Source: Cladocopium goreaui
Taxonomy: Eukaryota; Sar; Dinophyceae; Suessiales; Symbiodiniaceae
Assembly: GCA_947184155.2 (NCBI GenBank)
Contig: CAMXCT020002716.1
Span: forward strand, 1-64,000
DNA: 64,000 bases
Reading direction: 5' to 3'
Position 1 is the first letter of the stretch, and each line of letters starts with the position of its first letter. The notes under the pieces were generated by a model that did not search any database, was not told the origin of the DNA, and worked only from the letters and a program-made list of their open reading frames with translations. This document shows, in pieces, positions 16,495-48,842 of this stretch. The position numbers were made by a program, and so were the translations under genes.

Positions 16495-17063
16495 CTGTCC
16501 AAAGACGTGACAGGCATCCCGCAACATTCACCCACCCCTCTTTAGTTTTTGCATCTACATTGGGTGTCTGTCCAAAGACGTGACAAGCGCACTATCTTTA
16601 TTTGTCCCTGTGAAATTTTGCTCGCACACAGTGTGTCTGTCCAAAGACGTGACAGGTCACTGTTCTTTTTATCTGCATTGTTCCACCAAGGTCCATTCTT
16701 ACCTGTTTGCTCTGTGTTTTAATTTCATTGTTGCTTACTTTCAGGATTTCTTCTCACAATCTTTTCACAGTGTGTCTGTCCAAAGACGTGGCAGGTGCTC
16801 TGTTCTTATTCTTCCCTGCAAGATCCATTCTTTTCTCTGCTGCTTTCTTCTATTTTCACAGTGTGTCTGTCCAAAGACGTGACAGGTGCTCTGTTTCTTT
16901 ATTTTGATCTTTCTCTTGGCCCCTTCTTTTCCCGCTGCTTTCTCCTGTTTTCACAGTGTATCTGTCCAAAGACGTGACAGGTGCTCTGTTATCTACCCCA
17001 CTCACGCCCTGTTTGATTCCTCTCTCCCAGTGATACGGGTTTATCTGTCCAAAGACGTGGCAG
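16495..17063 (+). repeat. Seven CAAAGACGT-loop hairpins in the 5'UTR of LINE B
   Basis: Copies lie at 16495-16513, 16568-16586, 16637-16655, 16776-16794, 16867-16885, 16962-16980 and 17045-17063. The typical form is CTGTCCAAAGACGTGACAG, with CTGTC pairing with GACAG. Two copies end GGCAG, which keeps pairing through a G-U pair. The second copy ends GACAA and loses its last pair. Around the stem TG...CA often extends the pairing. Between copies the DNA is rich in C and T. The last copy ends 89 nt before the ATG of ORF1. Confidence 0.9.
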
Positions 17064-17152
17064 GTACTCCCCCCTTTCCCAATCAACCTTCGAAGATACC
17101 TGTCCTACCTCTCACACACCTACCACCTCCTTTTGAAGAAGACAAAGCCATA

Positions 17153-20100
17153 ATGTCTGAGTACATCGAGGCTCAACAGGCTGCTGCAGAAGGTCTCGGT
17201 GCACTTGGATTGACTGCCACTCTTATGGTACATTTTCCGAGCAAAATCAGAGCACCGGAAGGCATACTTTTGACTACCTATGATCAGCTGCATTCACAGA
17301 TAGCGAAGCAGGAGACGACTGTTTATGCGTTTCCCTCTTTTGGAGCTGCTCAAAGTGCTATGAGAACACTGGCAACGATGCAACAGACTGTCATATTCAT
17401 TTATGAATGTCATGCCAACACTGGCCCAGTGGAAATAGCGGCAAAAGTCTTTGACACCTGCCATAGGCATATTGCAGCAATCCGAGAGATAAAACAGCTC
17501 ACTGGAACCCTCAAATATCAAAAATATCCTACAGTACTATATCTAATCAAAATGGATAGTCTGTCAAGCAGTCCGTCGGTAATTGAATGGCAAATCTCTG
17601 ACACGATATCTGATGAGCTGATTATGCCTGCTCGTATTGCCTTTGAAAATTTTGTTGGCAAAGAACTGCGACAAGGGCAATATCCAGGGGTCAGTGAAAC
17701 CAGTACGTCGCCAAACGGCTGCTATAATTCCGACAAGTCAAAAGGAAGCGTGCCGCTTACCATCAAATATGAAAAGAACTCGTGCTTACAAAGAACCAAA
17801 ATCCGTGAAGCAATTGAATCATTACAGAAGGAAATCAACACAGCACAAGACACCCAGTTCCAGATCAAGGAAGGCATTGACTGGACTCGTTTGCACAAAC
17901 TGCGTGAGGCTGCTGTTTTCACTGTCATGTCCACTCGGCACTTAAGTGATCAAGAACGAAATGCTCTTGCGCTGGAGCTCATGTCCTTCAGAATAAAGTA
18001 CTTCTTTTTATCTAAAGCTCAAGTAATGCTGAAATTAGAAGGCATGGAAATCGAAATGCTCCGCAATTTATTGCATTGTTCAACAACGTACCTGCCCTTT
18101 GGGCAACGACAGCAATCGACACAATTTGTGCTTAGTCAAGTGACTGCCATTGGTAGCAGCTGGTACCGTATTGAAGTAAGATATGCTCCAATAGGCAGTA
18201 TGCCCTTTATACCACTTCAAATTGCAAGAAGTAGCATCATACCACTCCTGGAAAATGATGTAGCAGTCATTGACTCAGATCTCGGCTTCGCACTTATTAA
18301 TGCGTTTTCAGCCTCGAAATTTGAATTTCAAACAATTGTTAATGAAGACAATGTCAATGTCAATATGCTCACCTTTTGGATCCCTCATGAAGTTAAGCAG
18401 AATTTCCCGTGTTCTTTCTCAGTCAAGGACAGAAGAGGAAATCGCGTTGTTTTCACGATAGAACATTGTGGAAACATACTGCCACAAACTGGTGCACCGG
18501 GTGAACCACCCAGGCACGAAACCAAAGGAGAGCATTGGCGCAGAATTGGCGAAAAGTGTAATCCAAGTTTCAAAAACAGACTCACGGTCATCGCCCCTGT
18601 CAGCACCCAGAATGCTTCACAGAAGCGACGGTTCGGACTTCTTAAGGACTCAGCAGTTGATTTGCAAACTCAACAGGTATCATACACGTATTCTGAAGAG
18701 ACCTACCCGTGGATCCTCTTCCTTGAATCTTTACCTGAAAGAGATACGCTAGATATTTTTTTGACACATTTCAGTCATTTTGAATCAGTTAATAGTGCGA
18801 AAGGAGACTTTTGCAAGCAAAACTTCCTCAGGTTTGAGCATGTGTCAAAATTTACCAGAATTATGATGTTTGAAATACCGTCAGGGAAGCAATGTCAAAT
18901 CAACCGAGTTGATGGCCTTGAAAGCTCATTATACCTCACTAAGGTTGATGCTCTACAAATATATCCTTTCAAAGCTTGTTATCTTGTCATGCTGGTGCCT
19001 CCCCACTTTGACTTCAGTGCCATGCTAACTGCTGATACCAAAGTTGAAGCTATTGCTGCATGGAAATTTAGTACATTCAACAACAGTGGTACCAACAGAA
19101 AAACTACCACTGTGCCTTCTACAAACTCCACACAGCACCAGTCGCTTACGAAGGACAAACGAACTGACCATGGTGCTCAACCGCCTAGGACCCCGTCTGT
19201 CCCTCCCAGCAGCAAGAAAAAAATTGATCAGCTTCCGGCTTACGCAGCGTTAGGTACCACCCCCCCGCCAACTCCGCCCTCCCAACATGTCAACCCCTAT
19301 CAGAACAGTCCCCCCCTCACTGACGCTGGTGCTGAAGCAAGCGGTCATGACACTGCGAAGTCAAATGCAGAGCGGTTAAGCAGTCAAGGTGAACCCAAAG
19401 GTGCTCAGCGCACTTGTAAACTTCCAGAAGGGCACTTAGCACCTGGTGATGCACGCCCTGACCCCCCTACTGTCAGCCCAACCATCCCATGGACGAACCT
19501 ACCTGCTAGTCACCCAGCTGGCACCAGTGAGCAACCAATTATTGACATGGTTGTTGATCAAGACCATCATGGAGATGATACACGCAAACTAGAGGAGGAA
19601 GATAAAGAAATGCTACCTCCCCAACCTGCACATCTCTCCGCCCCCCTCAAAAAACCTCCTACATGTGAAGGAGAAGCTCTCAGCAGTCAGAAAACTTGCT
19701 TACAGGAGCACAAACCTACTTGTGGAGAAAGGAAAGGTGGGGTTGCAAGCAAAGGCAGAGTGTCTAACGAGCTTTCTGACCCCATTATCACTCCGTCCTC
19801 CCTACCTGGTATCTCCTCTCCCTTACAAGATGACAATGCGAAAACTGATGACAATGACCCTATTGAGCTCACACCCTCAGGTCAAGGCCAGCCTCCAGAT
19901 ACTGCCTCTAAGGCCCCTATTAGAAATGATTGCTTACCAGAAAGGCTGCCATTGCTACCTGATGACTCTTTTGTCGTTGAAATCGTTAAAGATCCCCCTG
20001 GCACTGCAGCCCCTGTGAAGACCAAGTCGTCCCAGCCTTCCTCCTCACATCAAGGAGAAGCATTGCCCCCTATCCAGGCAGCCCTTAAAAGAAGTTCTGT

Positions 20101-20965
20101 CCTCCCGGCTAATGACAAAACGCGTGTGTGCATTGATATCACTGGGGAAGATGACAACACCGAGCAAATTGACCTTGCCCAGCCATCCTTTGAGCGTGAA
20201 ACTCAAAGTCAATCCCTGCAACTTCGATTTGCCTTCCTTTCTCCGTTCGCTGAATCTAGCCAAAAATGGTTCCCTACTCTTGATGCTACCATTATTGCAG
20301 CCCTAGCTAACAAAGCCCAAGACATTGCGCTCCATTGTGGTCACATGTCTAGCATGAATATTGCATTGTATCTCCTATCAAGAGGACCTTGGATCCCAAC
20401 ACATGTTAGTATACATGTTCGACAGGCAGCCCTTGCAGCAGTAGGTGTTGGGTGGAGTTGGGTCCATCAAGTACCCACGGCGTTTCCGTTTACATGTTTC
20501 GACGCCTGCCTGTCCCTAGCCACACTCAGTACCATTCCCCCTAATAGTACTACACAAAATGATGCTGTGTATGACCTGTATTCAACTGTGTGTGCAAACC
20601 TTAGTCAGAGTACTCGTAGTTTTCTCTTCTCGAGATTTGTGTTACAATGTCAGGCGTGCTCACAGTCCAGCGCAATACCAATTGACACCTTCACAGCAAC
20701 AATTAAGCCCAACACAAGTATCGATGAACTTTGTGACCTGCTAGTTCCAATCTGGAACACTGATGAATTGACCGAATGTCAAGCTTGTCCATGTCTAGAC
20801 GCTGCCAAAGCCAGGTGGAAATGTGGCAAACTAGGCCCTCTGATCATCGTTCGAATCAAAGCACCTCCAGGAGGTTCCTTTCCGAAGTTCGAGGAAGAAC
20901 GATTCCCACTCGGGCACAAATTTATGTTCCAAGAAAGAGAGCCAGCTTATGGTCCTTCATACTAG
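17153..20965 (+). CDS. LINE B ORF1, N-terminal part with USP-like domain
   Basis: The start is the first ATG after the hairpin array (1,270 residues). The frame is open further upstream, but there it only translates the hairpins (SVSVQRRDRCS repeats). The first ~640 residues are globular and unknown, distantly like copy A. A long Pro/Ser/Thr/Asp/Lys-rich disordered region follows (about 19080-20140). Then comes the USP-like region: MSSMNIAL aligns with the Cys box of copy A but has Ser (20348-20350) in place of Cys. Two C-x2-C pairs (CQAC...CQAC) form a zinc-finger-like part. The frame is lost in the last 25 residues before the stop; the protein continues in 20949-22367. No hydrophobic segment is seen. 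Confidence 0.8.
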   Translation: MSEYIEAQQAAAEGLGALGLTATLMVHFPSKIRAPEGILLTTYDQLHSQIAKQETTVYAFPSFGAAQSAMRTLATMQQTVIFIYECHANTGPVEIAAKVFDTCHRHIAAIREIKQLTGTLKYQKYPTVLYLIKMDSLSSSPSVIEWQISDTISDELIMPARIAFENFVGKELRQGQYPGVSETSTSPNGCYNSDKSKGSVPLTIKYEKNSCLQRTKIREAIESLQKEINTAQDTQFQIKEGIDWTRLHKLREAAVFTVMSTRHLSDQERNALALELMSFRIKYFFLSKAQVMLKLEGMEIEMLRNLLHCSTTYLPFGQRQQSTQFVLSQVTAIGSSWYRIEVRYAPIGSMPFIPLQIARSSIIPLLENDVAVIDSDLGFALINAFSASKFEFQTIVNEDNVNVNMLTFWIPHEVKQNFPCSFSVKDRRGNRVVFTIEHCGNILPQTGAPGEPPRHETKGEHWRRIGEKCNPSFKNRLTVIAPVSTQNASQKRRFGLLKDSAVDLQTQQVSYTYSEETYPWILFLESLPERDTLDIFLTHFSHFESVNSAKGDFCKQNFLRFEHVSKFTRIMMFEIPSGKQCQINRVDGLESSLYLTKVDALQIYPFKACYLVMLVPPHFDFSAMLTADTKVEAIAAWKFSTFNNSGTNRKTTTVPSTNSTQHQSLTKDKRTDHGAQPPRTPSVPPSSKKKIDQLPAYAALGTTPPPTPPSQHVNPYQNSPPLTDAGAEASGHDTAKSNAERLSSQGEPKGAQRTCKLPEGHLAPGDARPDPPTVSPTIPWTNLPASHPAGTSEQPIIDMVVDQDHHGDDTRKLEEEDKEMLPPQPAHLSAPLKKPPTCEGEALSSQKTCLQEHKPTCGERKGGVASKGRVSNELSDPIITPSSLPGISSPLQDDNAKTDDNDPIELTPSGQGQPPDTASKAPIRNDCLPERLPLLPDDSFVVEIVKDPPGTAAPVKTKSSQPSSSHQGEALPPIQAALKRSSVLPANDKTRVCIDITGEDDNTEQIDLAQPSFERETQSQSLQLRFAFLSPFAESSQKWFPTLDATIIAALANKAQDIALHCGHMSSMNIALYLLSRGPWIPTHVSIHVRQAALAAVGVGWSWVHQVPTAFPFTCFDACLSLATLSTIPPNSTTQNDAVYDLYSTVCANLSQSTRSFLFSRFVLQCQACSQSSAIPIDTFTATIKPNTSIDELCDLLVPIWNTDELTECQACPCLDAAKARWKCGKLGPLIIVRIKAPPGGSFPKFEEERFPLGHKFMFQEREPAYGPSY

Positions 20966-22367
20966 TCAGCCTGGAATGATAAGTGTGTACGACCATAACA
21001 ATGGTATACGAGTTGTGGACAGCAAGCTTGTCAGCGGGAAGCTCCTCATCAGTGGGCTTGTCATATTGCCAGTTAAATCACCCAAAGCAATCCTAATGAC
21101 AAAGCAACTTTCTGAAGCAGCAGGAGGGGGTGAAGTTGCGCAGTACCGCAGAAGACAACTAAAGGTTGTCAAAGGCTTTCTCAAATCGCCTCGGAAGCAA
21201 ACAAGAGCACGAACCTCGCAGCTCTCTCACCCTTCATGCAAGCACAATGCTAAGACCAAGTCGAGCAAGAAGAAGGCGAAGGCGGCAAGACATGGACCCC
21301 CTAAAGATGGCAAGAATGAGGGTATTGTTGAAGAGATCGACCCTGAAGGACTACCTAGGATCATCGCACATGGAACGCTGGCCAACATTGGTGTTATCTC
21401 GATGTTTGATGGAGTTGGATCTGTCTATCATATCATTAAGAAAAAACTAGGTAAACCCCCTACTATTTTCATCGCTGCAGAAATTGATCCTGTCCTACGT
21501 CGGCTTGTCGCTGCTGAAATAGGACTGCGTGAAGACCAACAGTGGGGATATACGATTGAAGGGGTAGCTACCATCTACGTTAAAGATGTCTGGGAACTAG
21601 TTGCCCGTGACTCTCTGATCCTTCGCCAAGCCAAGGCAATGCACCCTACAATCAAGTGGATTGTTGTCGCAGGATCTCCCTGTCAAGATCTCACTTATGC
21701 AGGCTATCTAAACGGATTGCTTGGGCTGACAGGTCAGCGGAGTATGCTCTTCTTTGTAGTTTACCTTGTTATTCTGCACCTTCAGAAGTTGTTTGGAACT
21801 GAATCAATTCGATACTTAACAGAGTATGCTGGAAGCATGCAAATTGTACAAACTGACCGCAAACCTAAAGCTATGCAACGCCTTGAGCAGTCTGAACACT
21901 TTCAAATGTTTCTATACTGTCTTGGACTCCCTAGTAAGCAACCAGCCAACCGGTGGGTTTGGGACACCAGTCCCTACTATGGTATCCAGCGAAAAAGGGT
22001 ATTTCTACGAAGTCACATGGACACAGAGGAACTTACTATTGTCCCACTCACATTTCTCGACGAATGGGGTCCATTAGTGACTCTGAAAGGCGAAAACTTA
22101 CCATTAGCTCCATTGCTCCGAACAAGAGGACTGTCAAGCAGCGGAATCTTGAAGCTCTCCTGGACAGGCTACCAACCCAGTGCACTTCTATGGGATTATT
22201 CCTTTTTTGGAGGGAGGAAATCTTTCATGCTATTAACCCAAATTGCTGAGAGAGACAGTCCCAAACCTGCCATGGGCAAGCTTCATTCCTGCTCACTTTC
22301 TCCCTATTTGGAAAAGTTTCCTTATCACTCTTCAAACAGACAGAGCGACTACATCCAAAAAAGATGA
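20949..22367 (+). CDS. LINE B ORF1, middle part: end of USP-like domain and DNA methyltransferase N-terminal half
   Basis: This frame continues ORF1 after a shift at about 20890-20945, so the ATG at 20949 is not a real start. It opens with the region aligned to the His box of copy A (KKESQLMVLHT against KSSHHFLIIER), where the catalytic His position is Gln, followed by the shared VYD. A Lys/Arg-rich linker leads to the methyltransferase: motif I SMFDGVGS (about 21400-21423), motif II AAEIDP, catalytic PCQ at 21678-21686, motif VI as TEYAG, and motif VIII IQRKRVF. Homology is lost at about 22240 through another frameshift, and the last 40 residues are out of frame. Confidence 0.85.
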   Translation: MVLHTSQPGMISVYDHNNGIRVVDSKLVSGKLLISGLVILPVKSPKAILMTKQLSEAAGGGEVAQYRRRQLKVVKGFLKSPRKQTRARTSQLSHPSCKHNAKTKSSKKKAKAARHGPPKDGKNEGIVEEIDPEGLPRIIAHGTLANIGVISMFDGVGSVYHIIKKKLGKPPTIFIAAEIDPVLRRLVAAEIGLREDQQWGYTIEGVATIYVKDVWELVARDSLILRQAKAMHPTIKWIVVAGSPCQDLTYAGYLNGLLGLTGQRSMLFFVVYLVILHLQKLFGTESIRYLTEYAGSMQIVQTDRKPKAMQRLEQSEHFQMFLYCLGLPSKQPANRWVWDTSPYYGIQRKRVFLRSHMDTEELTIVPLTFLDEWGPLVTLKGENLPLAPLLRTRGLSSSGILKLSWTGYQPSALLWDYSFFGGRKSFMLLTQIAERDSPKPAMGKLHSCSLSPYLEKFPYHSSNRQSDYIQKR

Positions 22368-23907
22368 ACTCATCGAACAACTAGCGCCTATCTTTCATAA
22401 CCCAAATATTGTACTGCCAATGAGAATTCTGACGGTCCAAGAAGTACGCAAACTAGCAGGACTTGAGAATATCCTAACGACAGAAAGACATGGGCCTACT
22501 CTTCTCACGGATAAAGTGATTCGAGACTTTTGTGGGAATAGTTTTCACCCATCTCTCATCAGTGCGGCCCTCGGTACCGATGATCAATTACAACAATGGG
22601 TTGAAGGAAACAATGATGCGCAGCCGTGTTGTAAAGACCTACCTAGTATCCAAGAAGTTTATTCAAAATACCAAGACCTGCTGAAGCTGGTATTGGAACA
22701 AGCAGCCGCTCGAGGAGTTCAACTCAGAGCTGATAAAGTGGATTTTGAAGCGAAATGGCGGCACTACTCTCTTAATGATAGTGTCGAATCAGCTCGCCCC
22801 CCAGTAGTGCACCAGCCGACGGTCTTTGCGTTTCTACAAGGATCCAAACCTCCAAAGTGCCACGGAACCCACAGTGAAACCGACCCCCCATTTGGTGATA
22901 AAGAGTTGAGCGACATCATGACCCAAACTAGGATTGATTGGGTGCGAGAGTCGTCAAGCACATATGAGAATGTTCCCCTATCAGCATACATGATGAACTT
23001 GGCTGTTAAAAATGGTGTTGGATTTCACTCGGAAGCTCAAGAGATTAAAGCTAAGCATATTGCACTGTTGAAAGAATATACTGATGCTGAACAACTTACT
23101 GCTATCAAACAACTTTTTGTTGTGTTCCAGATTGCAACGCTTAGTGTAAAGCACCAATTTCCCTACGGTTTTATCATTTGGGCACCGAAAACTATGCAAC
23201 CTCCCCTTATCTATGTTGGGGTGCAGCGACCTTGCCTGTTGTTCCTGTTGCTTTCTCATGAGCCCGATCAACCGTTTCGCTTTGGAACGGTCGCCTTTGA
23301 CTATCGTCAAAGTAAAGATCTTCTTATCCATGCCAACATGCCAAAGATTTTTGCTGATGTGGTGCAAGTTTCCTATCATACATTTGCGACTTACCCGATA
23401 CTTGCTCGAATTGAGGATGGACAACACTATATACATCTGAGTGAATTTGCGGCTTTGCAGTGCCCTTTCTGTGCTCTGTGTTACTTGCACACGCTCGGTG
23501 CCCCGCAGTGCTTTATGCACAATGCCTCGCCCGCTAGCACTGTCATTCATTTACTTGGTGGCCTCGATGGCACAGGCGGCTTAAGTATTATAGGTGTATT
23601 AGCACGAGATGGTAGTGGTACCATCCCACAATGGATCGCCATACATGTGGTTGACAATCACCAAGTTCGAGCTATTGCAGACTCTGAGTCCTTTGTTGCG
23701 TACAAAGTTGCCACCCCTGTCGTATGGTCACCAATGTGGTATACGCAGTCATCGTCCATGCGACGAGTGCCCAGGCAACTTGGGACTCGACTCATACAAT
23801 CCCATACACTGGACCCATCAGGTGAATATCTTATCTCTGCAAGTACGGAGGAGTGGAGCAGGCTGCTTTTCGCACTTGGAGAAGCCCCAACGGAGGGAGC
23901 AAATTGA
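22243..23907 (+). CDS. LINE B ORF1, C-terminal part: end of DNA methyltransferase and unknown tail
   Basis: This frame takes over from the previous one at about 22240 and has no ATG at its beginning. It carries the target-recognition side and motif X of the methyltransferase (FCGNSFHPSLISAALG, the partner of YCGNSFHPE in copy A). About 400 further residues of unknown function are shared with copy A. It stops at TGA 23905-23907. The frame stays open beyond that stop into ORF2, which starts 18 nt later in the same phase, so occasional readthrough would give a single giant protein. Confidence 0.8.
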   Translation: MLRETVPNLPWASFIPAHFLPIWKSFLITLQTDRATTSKKDELIEQLAPIFHNPNIVLPMRILTVQEVRKLAGLENILTTERHGPTLLTDKVIRDFCGNSFHPSLISAALGTDDQLQQWVEGNNDAQPCCKDLPSIQEVYSKYQDLLKLVLEQAAARGVQLRADKVDFEAKWRHYSLNDSVESARPPVVHQPTVFAFLQGSKPPKCHGTHSETDPPFGDKELSDIMTQTRIDWVRESSSTYENVPLSAYMMNLAVKNGVGFHSEAQEIKAKHIALLKEYTDAEQLTAIKQLFVVFQIATLSVKHQFPYGFIIWAPKTMQPPLIYVGVQRPCLLFLLLSHEPDQPFRFGTVAFDYRQSKDLLIHANMPKIFADVVQVSYHTFATYPILARIEDGQHYIHLSEFAALQCPFCALCYLHTLGAPQCFMHNASPASTVIHLLGGLDGTGGLSIIGVLARDGSGTIPQWIAIHVVDNHQVRAIADSESFVAYKVATPVVWSPMWYTQSSSMRRVPRQLGTRLIQSHTLDPSGEYLISASTEEWSRLLFALGEAPTEGAN

Positions 23908-23925: not shown

Positions 23926-26900
23926 ATGATGATTCTGCGGAACCTGCCTGCTCCTCTGCTCCGTACTTTGCTCAAGATGCTTACGCGATGTGTTAAAACG
24001 ACTTACCTATACGAAACAGGGACTCAATGCCCGCCATATCTATCAAAGATACGTGACCTATCAATATTGCCCAATATACTCCATGTCCGAACACCATGGT
24101 GGAAGCTAACCCTGCAACATGTTGCCGCACTTTTCCATCAGGGTGTTGATGATTTTTATCAGCAACTTATGAGTGACTCACGAACACTACCTTCTCTTGC
24201 AGTAGAAGAAATAGGAAGAGGCATTCTCGAATACCGAAAAGCTATCAGACAAGATCTTCCATTTAGGCTCAAACGATTACATGTGTGGAATGTATCAGGG
24301 TGGACACTAACAACTAGAACAGGGGATGCCAAAATGCGACTCATTAAGCGATTGCTACGCACAGGCCCGGTTCTACTGCAAGAAACCAGATGGCACGCTG
24401 AAACCCATCAGGTCTTGCACCATAATATACCAGGTATTCAAGTTGCACACACCCAAGGATTGTTAACAGAAAGAGGTGGAGTGTCGGGTGGTTCGGCAGC
24501 CCTAATTCCACCTGGGTGGAAACTTGACCGAACAGAAGTTGTCATACCAGGTCGCATTGTCCTTGCGGTAATCCAAGACAGATATTCGACCATCGGACTC
24601 TTGTCAGTGTATCTACATCCACAAACCAAGGTCGTTGAGCTCAAAGAATTAATCGCCTGGGTCAAGACCAGCAAAGTCGACTTTCCCCTCTATATTGGGG
24701 GAGACTTTAACCAGGTGGATGCCAGTTGTCCGGACCTTTGGAATGAATTATTAGTCCACGCGCAAGTTCTTGACACGCACCCACAACTTCACACCTTTGA
24801 AAGCCCTACTGGAAGTTCAGCACTTGATAGAGTACTATGTCCCACTGATTATATAGCTGCGGCCCAAATTGACGTGATTGTAGCAGCCAATAGGCGACAT
24901 CACCTAAGTGGGCATTACCAACTCACCGCGACCTTTGTGGTTCGACCAAGAGTCAAAAATGACATGAAGGACCCAATCCATCAAACCATCCCAACTGACG
25001 TGTTCTGCCCTGGAAAGAACGAGGCTAACCCCTATATGGTCCCCAACGATCTACAAGAGCTGATAAGAAGGATTCAAAGACTACCCCAAACAGATGAAGT
25101 TGAGTTTGTGTCCACCCTGTGGTCTTGGTGGCGACAACAACCTATTCCATCTGATCATCCTCGCATTCCCGAGCATGAACTCCTGCGGAAATTCCTTAAA
25201 ATCCGAGCTGAGGTGTTACACGTACCTGCAAAGCAATTCCATGCACTTCAGACTGCCACTTATCATATCTTCTCTTCTAACGTAGGTAGTGAGCTATATC
25301 CAGGAAAGATAACTATTCGAAGTGATCTGTTGAAACAGATTTTTGATTTTCTAGATCAGATCACGATGACTCGGCAATATCCCGCTCTTGAGCAGGTGAA
25401 TCAACAAGCCAGAGGTATTGGCAATAACATTACGTTTTGGAATCGGTTACGATCTATTTGCCCCAAGGGCGTCATCTATAATGGGCCGATCCTCAATCAG
25501 CAGGGAGAACAGTGCACCACTTCCCAGATGCTGGACGAAGCCATGCTGGACACGCGGAACTTCTGGTTTGTTAAGCCTCAAGACTCTCTTCAAGAATGGG
25601 AACCCATTTTACGAGAATACCAAACTGCCTCGCCATGGCCAAATATTGAACTCCCCCAGAAACAGGACTTTCTCCATACACTCCTGGGCACTAAAGATTC
25701 AGCCCCTGGCCCAGATGGAATCCCCTACTCTGCATGGAGGCTCTCCCCTGAAGACAGCTACCCAGTCGCTGCACCAGTACAGGTAGGGGTTTGGATACCC
25801 AAGGCAAAAGTAGGTCCGACTGCGGACTACTTCAGACCATTAGGAATGCCCAATACGTGTGACAGGCTTGTTGATGGCACCATTGCTGCTGTAGTCATGA
25901 AAGCAACTTGTGCATATATGCATCCTTCGCAAGTAGTCATGAATTGCTTTAAAGAACCGCAGCACGCAGTTCATGCCATACAAGCCTTACTTGACAGTAA
26001 TACTCCCATGGCTGCGCTACTAGTTGATCTATCAAAAGCCTTTGAGCGGGTTAATCCCTATTGGATCTTACATATCCTGCGAATGCGCAACGCCCCGACA
26101 TGGGTATGTAATTATGCCAAATACATCTTATTTGGAAGGCTCATCCGCCATAAAGTTCAAGGCAGACTTCTGCCACCTAGGGCTGTGCATGTGGGAGTAG
26201 ACATGGGAAGGTCTTTCTCAGTATTCCTGTTCTGTTTGGCAATGGACCCTATATATCATTATATGAATCGTATCCCCCGGGTCATTAGTGTTCAGGGATA
26301 CATTGATGACAACACGATTGCAGGACCAGGACATGACATTACCTGGGTAAGTAGAGTCCACAAGTGCTATCAATGTTGCTGGTCGGCAGGGTTTCAAATT
26401 GACCAGCATACTTGTTGGCAAGCTATTAGCTCTGACTGTCCCCCCTTTTCAGTCCAATCCCTTCCTGGGCGGATTGAAAGTGAAGTTATCCTCAGGCAGA
26501 AGACATACCCAACCGCACGAGCAGCGATCTTATCAGCTATCCTTTCACAAAAGACACTCATAATTGCACGAGCCGACAAGTGTATTGGGTTGACCCCTCG
26601 AGAAGCTTGCCAGATCCTCAACGGAACTGACTACACACCCATATGCTCGTTGCTGGCATTGGAGTGCAACTGTAGGTGCAAAACAGCTCTAGTAATCAAC
26701 AGTCCGCTTCCAAGCTGGGTGCTACGTCAGTTAGATCAGTCAGGCTTCGGAGCACACTGCATCCAAGGTGTAGCGACTTCACTCGGGCTATTACTGCTGG
26801 GGCGCGCCCAATTGTCTGATCGTGACTTATGGACAGTAACTACACATCCTACTACCCTGAAACAAATCAATCCTAAAGCTGCCGAAAAGTTTATACATCG

Positions 26901-31204: not shown

Positions 31205-31223
31205 CTGTCCAAAGACGTGACAG
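31205..31223 (+). repeat. CAAAGACGT-loop hairpin
   Basis: The sequence is CTGTCCAAAGACGTGACAG, the same form as in the LINE B 5'UTR. No open frame follows within 800 nt, so this copy is an orphan or marks a decayed cistron. Confidence 0.85.
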
Positions 31224-37459: not shown

Positions 37460-37477
37460 CTGGCTAAAGACTGTCAG
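37460..37477 (+). repeat. TAAAGACT-loop hairpin, CTGGC/GTCAG stem
   Basis: The sequence is CTGGCTAAAGACTGTCAG. One of the five pairs is a G-U pair, an intermediate between the CTGAC/GTCAG and CTGGC/GCCAG forms. Confidence 0.85.
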
Positions 37478-40291: not shown

Positions 40292-41396
40292 CCTCGCCCA
40301 ATTCGGCTGGTTGCCGTTGGCTGCGGCTTTATTTGGTACACAAGAATGGAAGCCCCAATGGCTGCATCACAATTTCCTTCCAGTGGTTGGTCTTCGACTG
40401 CATGCCAAAGTGCCTCCTCCTCCTCTCTCCCAAGCTCAACTAATCTTGCTGTGTGGACTGTGGCAACGGAAGGAACAAACGGAACCCTCCTGTACATCGC
40501 TGCAGCAAGCAGCTCATTTAAAGTTTGGCCTTCCGTTACCATTCCGAGAAATGGCTAAATGGGAAGTCACTGTTAATGAGCAGGCCATAGATGTTGGAGA
40601 AGTATCCAAACAAAACTACATTGGAAGACAACCTGAAGCTGCGCTGCCCGTAGCGCTCCAAGGCTCTGCCGAGTGGGCCTCCTGGGTCCTTTCCCTCTCA
40701 GAAGTCTGGCAAGATGACGCCCCAATGCAAGACCGACCCCTGGAAGTGCATTGCAGTGGATTAGGGGGTGGCCTACTTAATGGCGAACACGACTATGATA
40801 TTTTCCTGCAAAATCTTGCGCAAACAAAGGTGTATGGCCCATCGCTTGCGATGACAGATGATTGGGAAGCACATGTCACCCAATTGGGCCTCACCAAAAC
40901 AGTGCATGAATATGCGGTATACCAGCTACACTCCACTGCAGAAGGATGGACAGCTTGGCGAGATTTCCTCCCTGAACAGTTCTCCGATCAACAACTGCTG
41001 CTCACGAGAGCGATTCGCCTCATTGAGGCTGCGAATATCCGGCCAGCCCATGCCAGGCCACCACACCCGACTTGGTCAACAGCAATTATGCAGATCTTCC
41101 GTTGCTACCATCCGCAAGGGAAACATCTATTTTTGAAGTCGTGTTTTCCACACTTAGTCACGACAGCGGATACAGGAGGTGTCAGGGACATCAACGTTTA
41201 TGGTTTCTCGGCAGGGTCCTATACGGGCCTTGCAGTCCACGAGATCCTGAGTGAATTCGCTGCGTTCCCTGGCCTCACCAAAGTTGCTGCGATTGCGACG
41301 CCGCCAGAGATGATGCGACTTGCCACGGGCGAACGCAGAGTCACACTGGTGCATTGTCTGGAAGACCGGCTATGTGTGTGGAACCTGACTCCTTAA
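40260..41396 (+). CDS. Giant helicase protein, part 2: hydrolase-like domain
   Basis: This frame continues part 1 and has no ATG at its start (SLGDLAQFGWLPL). In the second half YGFSAGSYTGLAVHEIL (about 41199-41250) fits the G-x-S-x-G nucleophile elbow of alpha/beta hydrolases, followed by a strand and VTLVHCLEDRLCVW, the usual place of the late Asp/His region in this family. The catalytic Ser would be in GFSAG. The frame is lost after LCVW and the protein continues in 41354-44509. Confidence 0.65.
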   Translation, partial: ALTQPARSLGDLAQFGWLPLAAALFGTQEWKPQWLHHNFLPVVGLRLHAKVPPPPLSQAQLILLCGLWQRKEQTEPSCTSLQQAAHLKFGLPLPFREMAKWEVTVNEQAIDVGEVSKQNYIGRQPEAALPVALQGSAEWASWVLSLSEVWQDDAPMQDRPLEVHCSGLGGGLLNGEHDYDIFLQNLAQTKVYGPSLAMTDDWEAHVTQLGLTKTVHEYAVYQLHSTAEGWTAWRDFLPEQFSDQQLLLTRAIRLIEAANIRPAHARPPHPTWSTAIMQIFRCYHPQGKHLFLKSCFPHLVTTADTGGVRDINVYGFSAGSYTGLAVHEILSEFAAFPGLTKVAAIATPPEMMRLATGERRVTLVHCLEDRLCVWNLTP

Positions 41397-44300
41397 CAGA
41401 ATTCAATTATCAGGTTGTTCTTATAGAAGGGCACCCCACATGGAGTGGGCGTGCCAAACACTCCTATGGCCACTTGCTTTTCATTGACCTTGATGAAGGA
41501 GTCCATGAAATCCAACGATTGCAAATCACCACCCCTCAAGTCATTCCTCATGGAGTGCGGTGCGAGGGATTGCTGCGTGTACTTTCGTGGGTTAGCTTTG
41601 ACCTTCCTGAACACCTCAAGACGACTCTAAGTGCTCTGTTAGTAGCAGCGGGAGAGGGGAACACTGAGCTACAAACAGTACCCATTGTCGGACGGGACAT
41701 TCGGGATGGTCAGCCTGATACGGAAGCTGAACTACAAGCAGCTCTGATTGCGATGATTCCTACACCGGGAGGATCCCATGATGAGGGAGGGTTGCTGGTT
41801 CGCAACTTACTGGCGGAATTCCTGCGTGGTTTTTCATTACGTACGCTCATCTTCCTACTGGACATGGTGCTTCCGCAACTTGACGCTTATCATGCGGGAC
41901 GGCAGCTCCAACATCTCCAGCCCTGGGTTAGTGTAAGTGTAGAACTAGCTCAGCAGAAGAAGCGAGGACAACCGGGAACACGGTTACAGGTTACCTACCA
42001 ATATGAGGCGTATGCTGGCTTTCATGTCATTCACCTACATACTGACGGTGCCCCGCTCCTGCTCTTTAGTGCACCTTCGGAAGTTCCAACGACCTCGCCG
42101 CGTGCTCTCTGTGAAGCTGGGAATCTAGGCAACTTGGAAGCCAACGTGATGGCGGGCAGAGCACTACTGGGAGTACTCCAGTTGCCAGACACTCAGCAGC
42201 GGTGTGTCATATTACTGGTACATGAAAAGGTGATGCCTAGCGGAACTAGCAAGAACCCTGCTCAGCGAGCGCTCAAGCGCATTGCCCCTAAGTTGCTGGA
42301 GCTTGTTATCGTCTCGCTACCCATTGCTCGGACCTTTTGTGGGCGACTTTTGGACCAGTATCTCAAAACAATGAGTTACTTTGATCCTGCACAGGACTGG
42401 CCGAAACCCATCGAAGACCATGTGTCCATGGCCGTAGTGTGGGAGGAGCTAGCCTTTCTGGGAGACACACGCAGCCGCCATGAACTCTTAGTGTTTGCAC
42501 AAGCTAACCAGTCGCGCCTACCATTGGCAATGGGCATCGTGCAGCCGCATATACCTGTTCGCCGCATGGCCAGCGAGCGCAAAACGCAGCTGACTGATGC
42601 ATTAGTCAGAATCTTGAGCCGGTTTTTGACACCAGCCGCGATCTCGATGGAAGGGGCCCATGACAGTTATTACCGTGAGCATCTACTTCCACTAGCAGCC
42701 CACGGTGATGGACATATCTTGACTGTCTCAATTGCACTGTTGCTGGCCATTTTGACAGGAAGATCTGACTTATGTATTGCAGGGGTCTTTGGTGCTGGCA
42801 AAACGCGGTCCCTTGCAGTCTTGCTCATTGCCCTGAGCTGCGAACTCAAGGACTTTGTTGCGATCATCTATACGAAAGAAAATGTAGCTGCCAAAGCACT
42901 TGCGGATCAGTTAAGTGACCTCGCGCCCCCCACAATCCGGAACTTTGGTAGGCTAATTGGTCGCATGGAGGAAGGCAAAGGAGACGCATATGCCTCCAAA
43001 ATTGACGTCCGCTGCAGTGACCGCAATAGAATCATCGCTCACAAGAATGTACTCATTGCAACAGGTGGCTCAGCCACGGCGGAAATGGCGATGCGCTATT
43101 CCACTTTTGGCCATTGGATCTCTCGCACCTGGCTTGCTTTCATGGACGAAAGTCAACAGTATGGCAATTACCATGAAATTGCAGCTCTCGCTGCCATTCA
43201 ACAACCAACCCTTACAGTCTTCATTGGAGATCACAGGCAAACACCAGGAGGGCTGTCCAAAGGCCGAGCAGCGGCTGTCAATCGACGCAAACTGTTGCAA
43301 CGGCCGTTAGGGCTCCGAGCGCTTGAGAAGCCAGGAGACTATCTTCCGCCGGCACGAATGGCAGCCCTTGTAGCTCAACTTTGGCCTGATGCGAGCCAAG
43401 ATCCGGAGTCAGATCTCTATAAACTGCTGAGACTTGCAAATAAGCCGCATAGTGGCCCATGGACATCCACTCCGCAAGACTACGAGCTGCCTGTCGCCCT
43501 AAGGCGGGTGTTCCACTGCCGAATCTCTTGTCAGTTGGATGCACATAGCAGCCTCATTGCAGCAGCTCTAGCAGTCCTGCTGATTGCCACAGCACCAGAG
43601 GAGTTTGGAGTACCTGAGTGTACCACAACCCTTGAAGCAGCCGGGCTATGTGGTCCTCATCGATGGGGTATCATTCTCCCTAAGAGCTCACGGGTCTCAA
43701 TGCTGACATACCAAGCGATCGTTGCAGTTCGCTACCCTGAATTAGTCCTTCACGAGCCCAATCACATCTACATTGGACACTTCGTGCCACATGAGGCCAC
43801 TGTGGCACAAGGAGGTTTCCGTACAGTACTGTGGAATGCACCCAAAGATCTAAGAGCTGCGGTTGAAGATGTGGTTGCCTTCTGCACCTACCTGAAGAAT
43901 TATTATCGCAACTTGCAACAGGGAGCAACCTCGCAGCTGCTTGTCTTATGCAACCGTACAGCGGTGCACAACTTGCTGCTCCAGCATGGCTTTCAGTCCG
44001 CGTGGTATGGCGGGCTGAGAGTTTCCACCACTTCTTCTGCTGCAGGGGCGACAGCACGCATTGCGGTCATTGTTCAAACAGGTGTCGGGTTTCTAAGTGG
44101 AGGACGTCGGGATGCAACAGCAGACAAGCGTGAGGACTGCTATGGAAGAGCAACTGTAGCGCTCACAAGAGCCATTGAACATACCTATATTGTCTCGCCT
44201 CTCGATATGGCAGGCATGATTGGCATGGCTCAGACAATAGGAGTGTACCATTACGGATACTTCACGCTGAAAGGCCGAGACATTCAGTACCATGGCCCTA

Positions 44301-44509
44301 CAAGCTACCCCAGCGACAAAAGTGCCATACTGGACTGGGGATTAAAGGCACCTTTCATTCCCCAAGATAAACCCCCCCTTGCTATTGCCATGATAGTGAC
44401 CACTAATGGAACACGAGCGTGGCGGCGATATCGGTTGGTTGTGGCATGCAGAGACAAACTACGTCTTCCCCCTGATGTCCTCGCAGCGCTAGAGTCCCCG
44501 CACACGTGA
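41354..44509 (+). CDS. Giant helicase protein, part 3: superfamily 1 helicase
   Basis: This frame of over 1,000 residues overlaps part 2 by 43 bases and is entered by a frameshift. The helicase core has motif I GVFGAGKT (about 42783-42806), motif Ia-like YTKENVAAKALAD, motif II MDESQQYG (about 43142), motif III IGDHRQTPGG (about 43228) and motif VI VALTRAIEHTYIV (about 44158). This is closest to the UPF1-like branch of SF1, which moves along RNA or DNA using ATP. The first 450 residues are unknown. There is no HUH or other replication-initiator motif, so this is not a Helitron. It ends at 44507-44509; the next frame continues the protein. Confidence 0.8.
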   Translation: MSGRPAMCVEPDSLTEFNYQVVLIEGHPTWSGRAKHSYGHLLFIDLDEGVHEIQRLQITTPQVIPHGVRCEGLLRVLSWVSFDLPEHLKTTLSALLVAAGEGNTELQTVPIVGRDIRDGQPDTEAELQAALIAMIPTPGGSHDEGGLLVRNLLAEFLRGFSLRTLIFLLDMVLPQLDAYHAGRQLQHLQPWVSVSVELAQQKKRGQPGTRLQVTYQYEAYAGFHVIHLHTDGAPLLLFSAPSEVPTTSPRALCEAGNLGNLEANVMAGRALLGVLQLPDTQQRCVILLVHEKVMPSGTSKNPAQRALKRIAPKLLELVIVSLPIARTFCGRLLDQYLKTMSYFDPAQDWPKPIEDHVSMAVVWEELAFLGDTRSRHELLVFAQANQSRLPLAMGIVQPHIPVRRMASERKTQLTDALVRILSRFLTPAAISMEGAHDSYYREHLLPLAAHGDGHILTVSIALLLAILTGRSDLCIAGVFGAGKTRSLAVLLIALSCELKDFVAIIYTKENVAAKALADQLSDLAPPTIRNFGRLIGRMEEGKGDAYASKIDVRCSDRNRIIAHKNVLIATGGSATAEMAMRYSTFGHWISRTWLAFMDESQQYGNYHEIAALAAIQQPTLTVFIGDHRQTPGGLSKGRAAAVNRRKLLQRPLGLRALEKPGDYLPPARMAALVAQLWPDASQDPESDLYKLLRLANKPHSGPWTSTPQDYELPVALRRVFHCRISCQLDAHSSLIAAALAVLLIATAPEEFGVPECTTTLEAAGLCGPHRWGIILPKSSRVSMLTYQAIVAVRYPELVLHEPNHIYIGHFVPHEATVAQGGFRTVLWNAPKDLRAAVEDVVAFCTYLKNYYRNLQQGATSQLLVLCNRTAVHNLLLQHGFQSAWYGGLRVSTTSSAAGATARIAVIVQTGVGFLSGGRRDATADKREDCYGRATVALTRAIEHTYIVSPLDMAGMIGMAQTIGVYHYGYFTLKGRDIQYHGPTSYPSDKSAILDWGLKAPFIPQDKPPLAIAMIVTTNGTRAWRRYRLVVACRDKLRLPPDVLAALESPHT

Positions 44510-46268
44510 CCATGTGCTGACGGCCAGCGGGTTTTTCCCCTGCTCGATTGATCGTGAATACTTGTATGGTTACGCTGCTGATGGCTACAGATCTTCCCTC
44601 TGGCTATGTGCAGCCTATAATGGGTCCCCAGCACTTGTTCATCGACATAGAGGCCACAAAGTCTTCTTTCACGTGGGTATACAGGATCGGCAACTTGTCG
44701 TAATCCCGGGTATCCATTACTTCGATGCCCATCGGTTGCAGCCGGACCTTTTGGCCACATTGGATCGCCAATTTGATCCAGGGTCTATGCAACTCGCAAG
44801 CCCTGAGGGTGCAGGAGACACAGTGAACGACCCCTCCTCGGATGAGGAAGCAGCCTCTACTGATGGCGAGAGCGATCCAGAAGACCCTACAGTTGCGTGG
44901 TGCCCACCCATACCTGATGCAGCTGAAGATCCCTCTGAGGACGAGATTGCGAGTGCAGCTGACCAGCTCGCAATTCTGATTACTAATGTCCAACCTAACG
45001 GAAACCCTTTTTGCATACCCGAAAACCTTGGGATTCTCCCGCCGCTGTGGCTACAGGCGAGATTGACGTTGTCTTTGACTGCCATCCAAGAAAAGTTTGC
45101 GCGCATCTTGCTGAGTGTGGCCTGTGAACTGTGGTTGCGCGGGCAAATTGCCAGTGTGGAGGATGTCCTCCAGCAGACGGCAAGAGCTCTCACAATACGA
45201 CTGGCAGAGAAGCTCGCCCAGGCGATGAGCTCGCTGATGAGATTGGCTGAATCCATGGTGACTCCAGAAACTGAATGCCTGTTGTATGCCACTTACTGGT
45301 TTCGACCCATCCTGTCTGAACTCATTGGCTCGGCCCGAGAGAGCTCTGAGGTAAATCGAAGTCGAGCGCCGAGTGGCCCAGTTAAAGTCCTGGTCACAGA
45401 TCGGCCTCATCGACGCACTACTGGGTTAGTGGACCTTACGAGTGGTGCCTCTGCCCTACTGGCATGGTTCCCGGCTAGCTGGGCCAGCAAAATTGCTCCC
45501 ACACTTCTCGAGAATGCTCCTGAGAATGCGCAGAAACCACAAGAAATCAACATTACGTGCCCGAAACGTTCCTGTGACGAGACTCCACTGGAGGGAACGA
45601 AGCAGCTACTCCAGGCAGTTAAATTTGCTGCCAAAAACATGCCTGGTTTTCGCCTTGGATTGGATGAAGACTTTCAAATGGCTGGATGTTTCCAGGAGCT
45701 CATCCATGGATATACCACAGGGCTCATTGAACCATATATGATGCGAGGTCTTCAACCGTTGGGACCGAATCGCACTACTCTGGAAGTGATCATACCCTCT
45801 CAAGTAGGGCTTACACCTGAAAAGTGGAAAGAAACAGCCACACTGTGCCCACTTGATTGGCCTTCCAACTACAGTCTGTTGCGATTGTGGCATACCAATG
45901 GAAGCCTTCATCAAACAGAAGCGCGACTCAGGAACCAACTGTCACACAGCCATATGTTTGCTGAGTGGACAGTGCATCTCCACAGATTTGCAGAGCGAGT
46001 TTTATTCCAGCAACCTGCAGTTTATGTAGCGGGACATGCCTTGCAAACCAACCTGCGGGAACGAAATTTCCCGGACAGGAAAGTCCGCAAGAGAGTCTCT
46101 CCTGAAGATCTGGACGAACATCAAAGGGCAATCGGAGCGCTTCATCAGCGTGCTATTGCTCAGCAAGGAGTGAACCCAGTTTCGTTTGGACTCACCAACG
46201 AATGGAACGACACTATCACATCTGATAAAAAGCATTATTTGGAACATTTCACGAGAGGTATGACATGA
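44505..46268 (+). CDS. Giant helicase protein, part 4: C-terminal region
   Basis: This part is in another phase and opens without an ATG, right at the end of part 3, so it is again a frameshifted continuation. It starts with DREYLYGYAADGYR, a block with VHRHRGHKVFFHV, and IPGIHYFDAHRLQPDLL, all recurrent in this family. An acidic stretch (SSDEEAASTDGESDPEDP) follows and then a helical region of unknown function. The C-terminal end NPVSFGLTNEWNDTITSDKKHYLEHF is also seen in a second copy at the right edge of the window. The stop is at 46268. Confidence 0.7.
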   Translation, partial: RDHVLTASGFFPCSIDREYLYGYAADGYRSSLWLCAAYNGSPALVHRHRGHKVFFHVGIQDRQLVVIPGIHYFDAHRLQPDLLATLDRQFDPGSMQLASPEGAGDTVNDPSSDEEAASTDGESDPEDPTVAWCPPIPDAAEDPSEDEIASAADQLAILITNVQPNGNPFCIPENLGILPPLWLQARLTLSLTAIQEKFARILLSVACELWLRGQIASVEDVLQQTARALTIRLAEKLAQAMSSLMRLAESMVTPETECLLYATYWFRPILSELIGSARESSEVNRSRAPSGPVKVLVTDRPHRRTTGLVDLTSGASALLAWFPASWASKIAPTLLENAPENAQKPQEINITCPKRSCDETPLEGTKQLLQAVKFAAKNMPGFRLGLDEDFQMAGCFQELIHGYTTGLIEPYMMRGLQPLGPNRTTLEVIIPSQVGLTPEKWKETATLCPLDWPSNYSLLRLWHTNGSLHQTEARLRNQLSHSHMFAEWTVHLHRFAERVLFQQPAVYVAGHALQTNLRERNFPDRKVRKRVSPEDLDEHQRAIGALHQRAIAQQGVNPVSFGLTNEWNDTITSDKKHYLEHFTRGMT

Positions 46269-48842
46269 TCCCTATCTCACCCCTGCTCGCACCACTTATA
46301 CCCTTTTGGTGTCCACCCCTTCCCCCCCTACCTCTTTTGTCTTACTTCGGTTTCACTCCCCATTGCTCCCTCACACAGTATTCGGCCTTTGTTTCATCAA
46401 CAATGGTGGTGGGAGCTGACCGAAATCTCTATGTCCCGTCGTCATGTCTACGTAAGGTTACTGTCCATACTAGTGTGTCTGTCCAAAGACGTGACAGGTG
46501 CACTGGTATGCAGTAGGGGACACAGCTCTTCCTCATTTATAATTGTTAGGTTCATGATGCTGTACATGCCTGGCCCCTACCTACTCAGATCTCTTAACAG
46601 TTGGTAGCCGCATTTGTAGTTGTGTGTGAGTGCCAACTTAGGCATAACAGATCGGGCAGCACGATTTCTCTTTGCATTAGTTTTCAGAATGTGTTGTCCA
46701 GTCGAGAGCTTAGACTATACTAAGGTCGCCTCCACCATGAAGCCTATTGCACGAGCGCACGCTCTCGCAGCCTTTGCCTGGCAATCATCGATGGGTAAGG
46801 AAGCTGTTGTGATTCTCCCCAGACTTAGTCTTGACGAGACACCCACTTTCCCACCCCTCCCACTAGTTAAGGTATCTGAATTCGGTGACTAATCCCTAGG
46901 TTTTGTCCTTAGCTGAGCTACAGTAGGATTGGTGCCTCGTTGTCTTGTTCTGGTTTTTGTTGCCTGTTCCCTGCCTGACGTGGCCCTCCCTCCCCCTCGG
47001 ATGGTCCTCTTTGGCGCCTTGGCCCAGGTTTTACTGGTCCCTCCCTCTGGGTATCGTTGCTTCCGGCAACGGCCTGGTTGCCTTGCCTCTGTGCGTGGAG
47101 TGTTTGTTGCGCATTGTCTCCCCTCCTCATCATGGCTCATGGCAACAAAGGCCTCTGGCCCTGTGTGGGGATCTTTCCCTCTACACCATGCTTCATGTGT
47201 TGTTGGGTGCTGTGTGCTCCCTCACTGAGGTATTCATCATTGTATGATCCTTGGCCCCTTTTTGGACTCCGCTAAGGCACTGTCGTATCCCTTCTAGTGC
47301 GTGTGTGTCCTTTCTCACTCTGTCCTCTGCTGCCTCCTGGCTCCTCTCCTCGCTTTCTCTGTGTGGCTTGTGTCGTTGTGTGTGTTATGATTTGGCCGCT
47401 CCCCCCTTAGTGCTTCCCCCCATGATGGCAGATTTCTTTTGGTTGGCTTTTTGTCGTTTTGCTTCAACTGTTACCTGGATACCGAGGTCACCGCTCTACA
47501 TCATAACTTTTCGTTTCACCTTTGTTACATCATACTCATTTGGTAGCAACTGAGGATTTGTCCGAGGTGGGGCGTTTTTGTCACTGTCCCCCCTCTCCTC
47601 TTTTCCCCTGTGAATTCGTTTGTTGTTTGGTGTGGTGAGTCTTGTGGCTCTTTCTTTGGCTGTATTGGGGGAGGCCCTTCTCGCTCTGTTCTGTTTCTGC
47701 GTTTTTTCCGAGAGGGGCGGTAGATTCCCGGTAGAGCCATGGACTAGGCTGCACTGCAGTGAGCACTACTGGCGCTGTCCAGTTGTGCTTCCTGCTGTTC
47801 AGTCTGGAGCGCCCGAGTGCAGCAAAGCCTGCCCACATGGTTCGTTGTGCGGATGTTCTGTACTGCCCTGGCAATGGCTCACTCGGTGGGAGAGAGTGGC
47901 CTCGTCTGGAAAACACAGCTAACATACGGTGCTTCTGGTCCTCCCTGCAGGACTTGCTGGGACGATGACGCCTAGTGACTCCTGTGTGAGACCTGGTGCT
48001 GACGCATAAACCACTTCAACCTTCATAGTTTAGGGGAACGAGTTTGACAGCAATGCGAATGCGACTTTTGCATACATAGCGGCAGTATCATACTGGAAGT
48101 GCTCACGGGCCCATGCTATGGTCGGAAGTTTCATCAGTCTGTCATGGCCGTATTGTGCCGGGCAGGCCTATAGCCACCTTTTTACCCATGGTCTTAGGGT
48201 CTTGGGCCCATTGCGCTCTGACGGTTCCTGCGAGTGCTCACACCATTTTGCAGGCTGTCCAGTGCTCTCCTCCCCACCTAGGGGGGGAAATAGATTACAA
48301 TCCCTTGCGGTGGTGCATATTGACAGGAACAGACTGCCGTGCATACGCTGAACGATACAGAGTGGACAGCCGCGATGCGAAGTTGCTATTGACAAGAAGT
48401 CCATACAGGCGGCCTCTGTCGTGTTACACTTCAGTCTGCCTGCAAATTGGATTCGTTTCTCTCTTCTCAGGTAAGACAGTCTGGACGATCGTGCACTATA
48501 CTCTATGCACCGCCGCAATTAATTAGTTTGCATGTTTTTGAGGATGATACAGTGGCTTAGGTCACTGTATCCATGGCAAATCTCATGTTTTGGTTTGGTT
48601 TTTTGTTGGGCCCTGCCCCTTTCTTTGTTGCTTCGCTGTTTTGCTTGGTGGCGAAACGCAAATCTGGCTGGGGGATTTGCGGGTCGTTTTTGGTTGCGTT
48701 GTTTGTTTTGTTTTGTTTGTTTTAGTGATGATTTGCCAGAGTTTTTGGACCACACGTGTCCTATACTCTACTGCTTCTCACCGCTTACGCAATTGTAAGG
48801 ACCGTGCCTAGTGCGATCGGCCAAATCGGAGGGAAAAAAAAT
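46269..48842. other. Gene-poor region, pyrimidine-rich on the plus strand
   Basis: No convincing gene is seen. The hairpin at 46479-46497 is the last of its family. A frame at 46620-46892 (ATG at 46738) is possible but has no recognisable content. From 46920 to 47950 both strands have open frames of about 100 residues because the DNA is strongly C/T-biased; I do not believe they are coding. Confidence 0.5.
46479..46497 (+). repeat. Last CAAAGACGT-loop hairpin
   Basis: The sequence is CTGTCCAAAGACGTGACAG, identical to the LINE B form. It lies 211 nt after the stop of the giant helicase gene. No copy of this hairpin was noticed beyond this point or on the minus strand. Whether it opens another cistron or closes the array is unclear. 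Confidence 0.85.

Follow-up and report, generated by a model that had tools for sequence, protein, structure and literature searches.

A 64,000-nucleotide stretch of the dinoflagellate Cladocopium goreaui (assembly GCA_947184155.2, contig CAMXCT020002716.1, positions 1 to 64,000; hereafter the window) contains a giant retrotransposon of the long interspersed nuclear element (LINE) type, here called LINE-A (16140–48842, plus strand, 32,703 bp), and all 17 copies of a short motif within it are the tips of conserved, selected RNA hairpins. The unit consists of an apical stem of 7 pairs, a small internal loop and an outer stem of about 5 pairs, and carries the loop YAAAGAC(GY/U). We propose that these hairpins would serve as lineage-specific cis signals, read by an RNA-binding protein that the element itself encodes, by which the element would mark its own RNA and set the starts of its cistrons, an interpretation to which we give an even chance of being correct.

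Seventeen conserved RNA hairpins

The first-pass annotation of this DNA had reported 17 plus-strand copies of the motif (named here by their first position) with six combinations of the five-base arms, and copy 16568 (GACAA) as the only one with a broken arm pair. All of this was borne out, as CAAAGACG occurs 14 times on the plus strand of the window and never on the minus strand, and TAAAGACT four times on the plus strand, three of them within the motif, and never on the minus strand. When the long form was written as a degenerate pattern, it matched 13 times in the window and not once in 100 dinucleotide shuffles. A covariance model, suggested by the same annotation, was built from 26 hairpins chosen by hand, 16 of the window's 17 (which match by construction) and 10 from other copies, and was run on the window and on fetched loci. 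It separated the 17 copies, with scores of 42–58 bits including 58.2 bits for the left-out copy 16867, from the next-best match in the window at 15.7 bits; the best score among unrelated loci chosen for the short pattern was 23.5 bits (19 of 36 loci scored). No Rfam family reached its gathering score in the window.

Across the whole assembly (1.166 Gb, 6202 contigs), the pattern CNNNCYAAAGACGYGNNNG, which leaves six arm bases free, was found 3198 times (1559 forward and 1639 reverse), compared to 121 matches of its reversed control (62 forward and 59 reverse). The five-base arms pair fully in 99 of the 100 listed among these 3198 matches, as tallied by eye, and the sole exception resembles a chance match. 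Independent changes of the two arms, the genome-wide outcome that the first-pass annotation had named as speaking against a hairpin, are not what is seen. A similar pattern searched in 257 Gb of prokaryote contigs gave 34 matches, approximately the number due to chance (estimated at about 30).

Pairing was also seen where it had not been selected for: the loop CAAAGACGT occurs in 184 different contexts in the window and the fetched loci, and in 179 of them five arm bases pair. Folding with 16-base flanks revealed that the motif arms form only the end of a longer stem, a feature that the first-pass annotation had not noticed; in most copies this stem extends past a small internal loop into an outer stem. 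When the 3' flanks of 15 window hairpins were exchanged, the total energy with their own flanks was −292.4, compared to −260.7 for the best permutation, and none of 20,000 was as good. For a 12-pair structure in the 26 hairpins, 90.4% of the pairs were standard, versus 69.7% after shuffling and 36–49% when the structure was slid; the covariation score was 0.560 versus 0.169 (0 of 500 shuffles as high), and further pair types numbered 29 versus 24.2 (3 of 500 as high).

Two other samples, 118 45-mers and 22 representatives, had been picked for at least four of five arm pairs, so that their apical counts hold partly by construction and their outer-stem counts do not. The 22 representatives are at least 7 differences apart, with one 45-mer (arm CATCA) omitted, and two of them (L069:2531 and L001:1501) are probably not members of the family. 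Among them, apical pair 2 is formed in 22 of 22 (shuffle mean 10.5) and outer pair 2 in 21 of 22 (shuffle mean 10.2), values that none of 20,000 shuffles reached, and outer pairs 7, 8 and 9 are likewise above the shuffles. In the listed copies the arm type is fixed for each site, so that independent arm changes are few; the stronger case comes from the outer stems, whose sequences vary from site to site and yet pair. The selected RNA hairpin that the first-pass annotation had deduced from matched arm changes is thus supported by pairing counts and covariation, and also by the conservation of the cores.

This conservation was assessed against C870, a copy collinear with LINE-A at about 88% over 16150–46427, with insertions; its fetched part excludes the 3' end, and hairpin 46479 lies outside the comparison. 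Of 301 bases in the hairpin cores 14 are changed, compared to 92 of 623 in the 20-base flanks (P 2.6e-6; 16 of the 17 hairpins alignable). Nine of the 14 core differences belong to hairpin 16962, a tandem copy absent from C870, and hairpins 39379 and 39550 both align to one C870 hairpin. An earlier count of 3/259 for cores and 65/515 for flanks was dropped, as it took only the C870 hairpins still reading AAAGAC, which favours conservation.

These data bear on two explanations that dispense with a functional RNA. The first holds that the hairpins are functionless copies of one repeat spread within the element by hitchhiking, as the partly tandem leader copies 16776, 16867 and 16962 (period 95) and the two hairpins missing from C870 might suggest. 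With cores changing about three times less than flanks, and outer stems that pair in spite of differing from site to site, such an origin is hardly credible. The second regards the motifs as DNA-level palindromes, transcription-factor sites or internal promoters in which the hairpin is incidental. In its favour, the arms are imperfectly palindromic and there are sites ahead of genes. Against it, one U-G pair is conserved in 25 of the 26 chosen hairpins and in 16 of the 17 in the window, and apical pair 2 is G-U in 32 of the 118 45-mers, which had been chosen for arm pairing as stated. A wobble pair that is kept argues for a signal at the level of RNA and not of DNA, and as outer stems of unrelated sequence pair and the sites occupy a single strand in the window, we consider the DNA explanation very improbable.

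Some observations weigh against the hairpin reading or limit it. Hairpins 16568 and 39248 (2 of 15) gained nothing from their own flanks in the exchange experiment. Pairs changed on both sides numbered 8 versus 6.7 in shuffles of the 26 hairpins (45 of 500), which is not telling; outer pair 5 is unpaired in 10 of 26 cells, and outer pairs 3–5 are not above shuffles among the 22 representatives. Moreover, most copies are close relatives within one genome, with far fewer independent changes than cells, and of the 16 hairpins to be expected in C870 two have been lost.

Hairpin placement and AUG-free leaders in LINE-A

LINE-A is delimited by an exact 18-bp target-site duplication, GGATTCGATATCCATCAT, present at 16122–16139 and 48843–48860 and nowhere else in the window. 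Directly after its left copy lies a spliced-leader (SL) relict, CCGTAACCCCTTTGGCTCAAG (16140–16160, plus strand), similar to the dinoflagellate spliced leader DCCGUAGCCAUUUUGGCUCAAG (PMC2606063), and directly before the right copy the element ends in eight A and one T. A first look gave 433 candidates for the 5' end and 1428 for the 3' end, an imbalance that 5' truncation of many copies, a trait of LINEs, might produce; 40 of each were scored. The best 30 of the 40 scored were fetched in each case: all 30 5' ends carry the SL relict, as judged by eye, and all 30 3' ends reach an A-run of about 7–11 A. Among the 29 visible 3' flanks, two pairs are shared (L055/L064 and L063/L066) and the others differ, the thirtieth end having no visible flank. 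No direct repeat of at least 60 nt joins the ends of LINE-A, and thus it has no long terminal repeats (LTRs). Its reverse transcriptase is of the LINE type (RVT_1, 1.1e-9), and the second open reading frame (ORF2), which contains it, is 37% identical to that of LINE-B, a neighbouring element with an APE domain described below.

Tandem SL relicts were observed at the 5' ends of L015, L028, L033 and L034, as expected from repeated trans-splicing and retroposition. The SL followed by GT occurs at 16 exact places in the genome, and the one inspected reads like an SL RNA gene. Such sequences fit the dinoflagellate origin supposed in the first-pass annotation, and one homologue of the reverse transcriptase bears a symbB-type name, as used for Symbiodinium (now Breviolum) minutum, which points to a probable host among the Symbiodiniaceae. 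Upstream of the A-run, within a conserved 3' terminus (48790–48842), a possible short stem, GATCGGCCAAATCGG, was noticed by eye and is a candidate for recognition by the reverse transcriptase.

None of the 17 hairpins lies within a delimited ORF, though ORFs counted from their first ATG make up 72% of LINE-A; some hairpins do fall in an open frame, shortly before its ATG. Seven are in the 1-kb leader, nine between cistrons, ahead of candidate ORF3 and of ORF4, 5, 7, 8 and 9, and one in the 3' untranslated region (UTR). With all copies on one strand and none in an ORF, a random arrangement relative to genes and strands, the second outcome that the first-pass annotation had named as contrary to its claim, was not what we found. 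The leader cluster (16495, 16568, 16637, 16776, 16867, 16962 and 17045; 16495–17063) has counterparts in other copies, with 6–8 hairpins in each of the 30 leaders fetched. Further downstream, single hairpins follow ORF2 ahead of the weak candidate ORF3 at 31353 (31205–31223) and lie 34 nt upstream of the ORF4 start at 32227 (32174–32192), 118 nt upstream of the ORF5 start at 33792 (33655–33673), 222 nt upstream of the ORF7 start at 35667 (35427–35444) and 31 nt upstream of the ORF8 start at 37509 (37460–37477). Four more cluster ahead of ORF9 (39093, 39248, 39379 and 39550; 39093–39568), and the 3' UTR hairpin (46479–46497) has a predicted stem of about 18 pairs including wobbles. All were placed on the plus strand by motif position and covariance model, the last also by folding.

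The RNA between a hairpin and the ORF that it precedes is mostly free of other AUGs. ATG is absent from the whole 1013-nt leader up to the start of ORF1. For ORF4, 5, 7, 8 and 9, which are five of the six ORFs preceded by hairpins, the start codon is itself the first AUG downstream of the first hairpin; for ORF9, this stretch runs from 39093 to 39644. Taken together, the 5' leader and these five stretches contain 0 AUGs, compared to a mean of 14.8 and a minimum of 5 in 2000 shuffles that keep dinucleotides. Most of this expectation comes from the leaders of ORF1 (mean 9.1) and ORF9 (3.0), that of ORF4 contributing none, and the ORF3 stretch, which has one extra ATG, was excluded. The six gaps upstream of the hairpins are not depleted, with 65 ATGs versus 67.9 expected. 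C870 shows the same AUG-free pattern from hairpin to start, as do L002, L003 and L008, and the leaders of other copies are ATG-free in 28 of 30. At ORF5, the last upstream AUGs (33635 and 33638) lie right at the outer stem of the hairpin. Being free of AUGs, the RNA between hairpin and start thus behaves like a scanned leader, which suggests that the sites of LINE-A also set translation starts, or else mark the ends of subgenomic mRNAs.

Each of these options could be taken on its own. If the hairpins were translation signals only, with the host machinery using them for internal ribosome entry or re-initiation and each cistron of a 33-kb polycistronic mRNA having its own set, then the AUG-free stretches, their recurrence in the other copies, the undepleted gaps upstream and the AUGs that end at the ORF5 hairpin would all be accounted for. 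Seven hairpins, however, stand in a leader that already has an SL 5' end, and one in the 3' UTR; the distance from hairpin to AUG ranges from 31 to 222 nt, and the sister element LINE-B has another apex and hairpins internal to an ORF. We therefore find translation signalling as the whole explanation rather unlikely.

Also unlikely is that the hairpins act solely in RNA processing, each marking where a subgenomic mRNA begins, through SL trans-splicing just after it or through cleavage at it, with the AUG-free stretch as the mRNA leader. Dinoflagellate mRNAs receive a spliced leader, the AUG-free stretches begin near hairpins, and each of the five hairpin-to-AUG stretches contains at least one AG dinucleotide. 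Yet the distance to an AG is not conserved, and ORF8 has a single AG downstream of its hairpin, which stops one base short of the AUG. For ORF8, the single case searched, the SL followed within 30 nt by the ORF start was found at one place in the genome, compared to about 0.3 expected by chance. Moreover, processing would leave the leader cluster, the 3' UTR hairpin and the ORF1 hairpins of LINE-B unexplained.

Coding capacity, LINE-B and a proposed reader

Third codon positions vary most against C870 in ORF1 (in three pieces), ORF2 and ORF4–ORF9; the candidates at 30325 and 31353 (ORF3) showed no clear third-position excess in this comparison. The ORF1 region (17153–23907, plus strand, as are all ORFs of LINE-A) comprises open frames 16883–20965, 20844–22367 and 22237–23907 and includes a part resembling DNA methyltransferases (DNMT). 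Its matches to DNMT profiles are weak and below the cut-off (Pfam 0.05, NCBIfam 0.0015), and the putative DNMT assignment of ORF1 comes from its alignment to a counterpart in LINE-B, which has no Pfam DNMT match and which we take to be DNMT-like from a sequence motif. ORF2 (23926–29952) has a reverse transcriptase and a putative RNase H-like part (RVT_3 0.0084, below the cut-off); its frame is broken once in the window copy and is open for 2021 aa in C870. An in-frame stop at 23905–23907, aligned with a stop in C870, separates the frame of the ORF1 region from the first ATG of ORF2 at 23926, and may mark the passage from ORF1 to ORF2, with re-initiation 18 nt downstream.

The remaining cistrons, all with third-position excess, are ORF4 (32227–33036, 269 aa, the excess seen in two pieces), ORF5 (33792–34538, 248 aa), ORF6 (34784–35179, 131 aa), ORF7 (35667–36833, 388 aa), ORF8 (37509–38627, 372 aa), with ankyrin repeats (Ank_2, 1.2e-7), and the ORF9 region (39644–46268), which is broken in the window copy. 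The latter contains a part that may be related to superfamily 1 helicases, its profile matches being below the Pfam cut-off (AAA_19 3.5e-4, Viral_helicase1 0.0048). In other copies, stop-to-stop frames of ORF9 reach 2562 aa (42 scored of 4218 candidates), and none of the 36 homologues found for one part of it is informatively named.

LINE-B (1–14214, minus strand), homologous to LINE-A, is cut by the contig start. It begins at 14214 with an SL relict and has APE (3.5e-10) and RVT_1 (1.6e-13) domains. Its leader of about 430 nt is ATG-free and contains no AAAGAC; instead, hairpins with the apex GGGTACY (GGGUACY in RNA) lie there at 13964, 13904 and 13808 (13802–13964, minus strand), the first with only 3 contiguous arm pairs. 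Four more, with the apex GGGTACC, lie inside ORF1 at 11223, 9500, 9407 and 9299 (9293–11223, minus strand); site 3226, with a 3-bp stem, was not taken as a member. The pattern of the middle leader hairpin matched the genome 157 times versus 2 for the control, and that of the ORF1 hairpins, with six free arm bases, 656 times versus 2; by eye, all three free pairs are standard, in several combinations, in 98 of the 100 matches listed among the 656. Across four other copies, the three hairpins at 9500–9299 have 1 variable column in 75, compared to 78 in 426 around them, within coding sequence.

Two homologous LINEs thus share one plan with different apices, which makes an element-encoded reader likelier than a host factor. 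We infer from this that each hairpin family may be the set of recognition sites for the RNA-binding protein of its own lineage, the ORF1 protein being the first candidate. Binding at many sites would mark the full-length, SL-tagged RNA as the element's own for ribonucleoprotein (RNP) assembly and reverse transcription, and sites spread along the RNA would suit both assembly and self-recognition. At the intercistronic sites of LINE-A, a bound hairpin might in addition fix ribosome entry or resumed scanning, such that the next AUG starts the next cistron. Counting against this proposal, ORF6 has a coding signal and no preceding hairpin, the covariance model finding none; the ORF3 leader has one further AUG (and a weak coding signal); the predicted fold of ORF1 gave no telling match; and the internal hairpins of LINE-B lie inside an ORF with ATGs downstream, and hence are not setters of translation starts. 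A wider generalization, that dinoflagellate LINEs use lineage-specific RNA address codes, each with its own apex and its own reader, and that a 33-kb polycistronic SL-tagged mRNA is translated cistron by cistron, is possible but doubtful.

Beyond LINE-A, the window contains dense direct and inverted repeats (49643–63720), among them the inverted pair 49643–50204 / 51830–52391 (562 nt, 100% complementarity), and a further open frame (56615–59413) with a weak reverse transcriptase match below the cut-off (RVT_1 1.2e-4).

Comparison with known systems

The first-pass annotation knew of no described dinoflagellate element with this loop, and in the literature we found no description of giant dinoflagellate LINEs or of such hairpins in a search that covered few subscription journals. 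We know of no LINE with a comparable polycistronic system; if the wider generalization above holds, a eukaryotic nuclear retrotransposon would have built its polycistronic expression on one repeated hairpin. The cis preference of LINEs and the translation of very long polycistronic eukaryotic RNAs are open questions that this would touch. Moreover, with two homologous LINEs in one genome, thousands of hairpins and two apices, the reader, its specificity and a role in translation are directly testable.

In internal ribosome entry sites and in intergenic leaders, a folded RNA precedes an internal cistron and is followed by a leader free of AUGs, an arrangement that LINE-A shares as far as its sequence tells. 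In contrast to them, LINE-A repeats one small hairpin for most cistrons, and has it also in an SL-ended leader and in the 3' UTR. In its plan, the hairpin is similar to the iron-responsive element, which has a constant loop and a variable stem with an interruption, but the loop differs, and so does the interruption, here an internal loop. The dispersed packaging signals described for RNA viruses and hepatitis B virus (PMC7612645, PMC7793301) likewise consist of numerous stem-loops along one RNA with a loop motif in common; there the reader is a coat or core protein, whereas for the sites of LINE-A, mainly in leaders and between cistrons, it is at present a candidate.

Retrogenes with SL relicts are described in which the SL became fixed at the DNA 5' end after retroposition, with several relicts in a row, and the same review calls the mechanism of dinoflagellate retroposition unknown and considers it more likely LTR-driven (PMC6050394). 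In the present case the tagged copy is a LINE itself, and SLs at LINE 5' ends therefore bear on that mechanism.

Finally, LINE-A appears close to the SymbioLINE-Dnmt kind, a Symbiodinium LINE with a DNMT in the ORF before the reverse transcriptase ORF, target-site duplications, conserved UTRs and no poly-A (de Mendoza et al. 2018, PMC5890265). The portion of that account accessible to us makes no mention of hairpins, further ORFs or an SL on the LINE. Target-site duplications and conserved UTRs are common to both, and the ORF ahead of the reverse transcriptase in LINE-A may be DNMT-like as well; LINE-A differs in its length of 32.7 kb, in at least six more ORFs after the reverse transcriptase, in its arrays of hairpins and perhaps in its 3' end, a short A-run where no poly-A is reported for the other.

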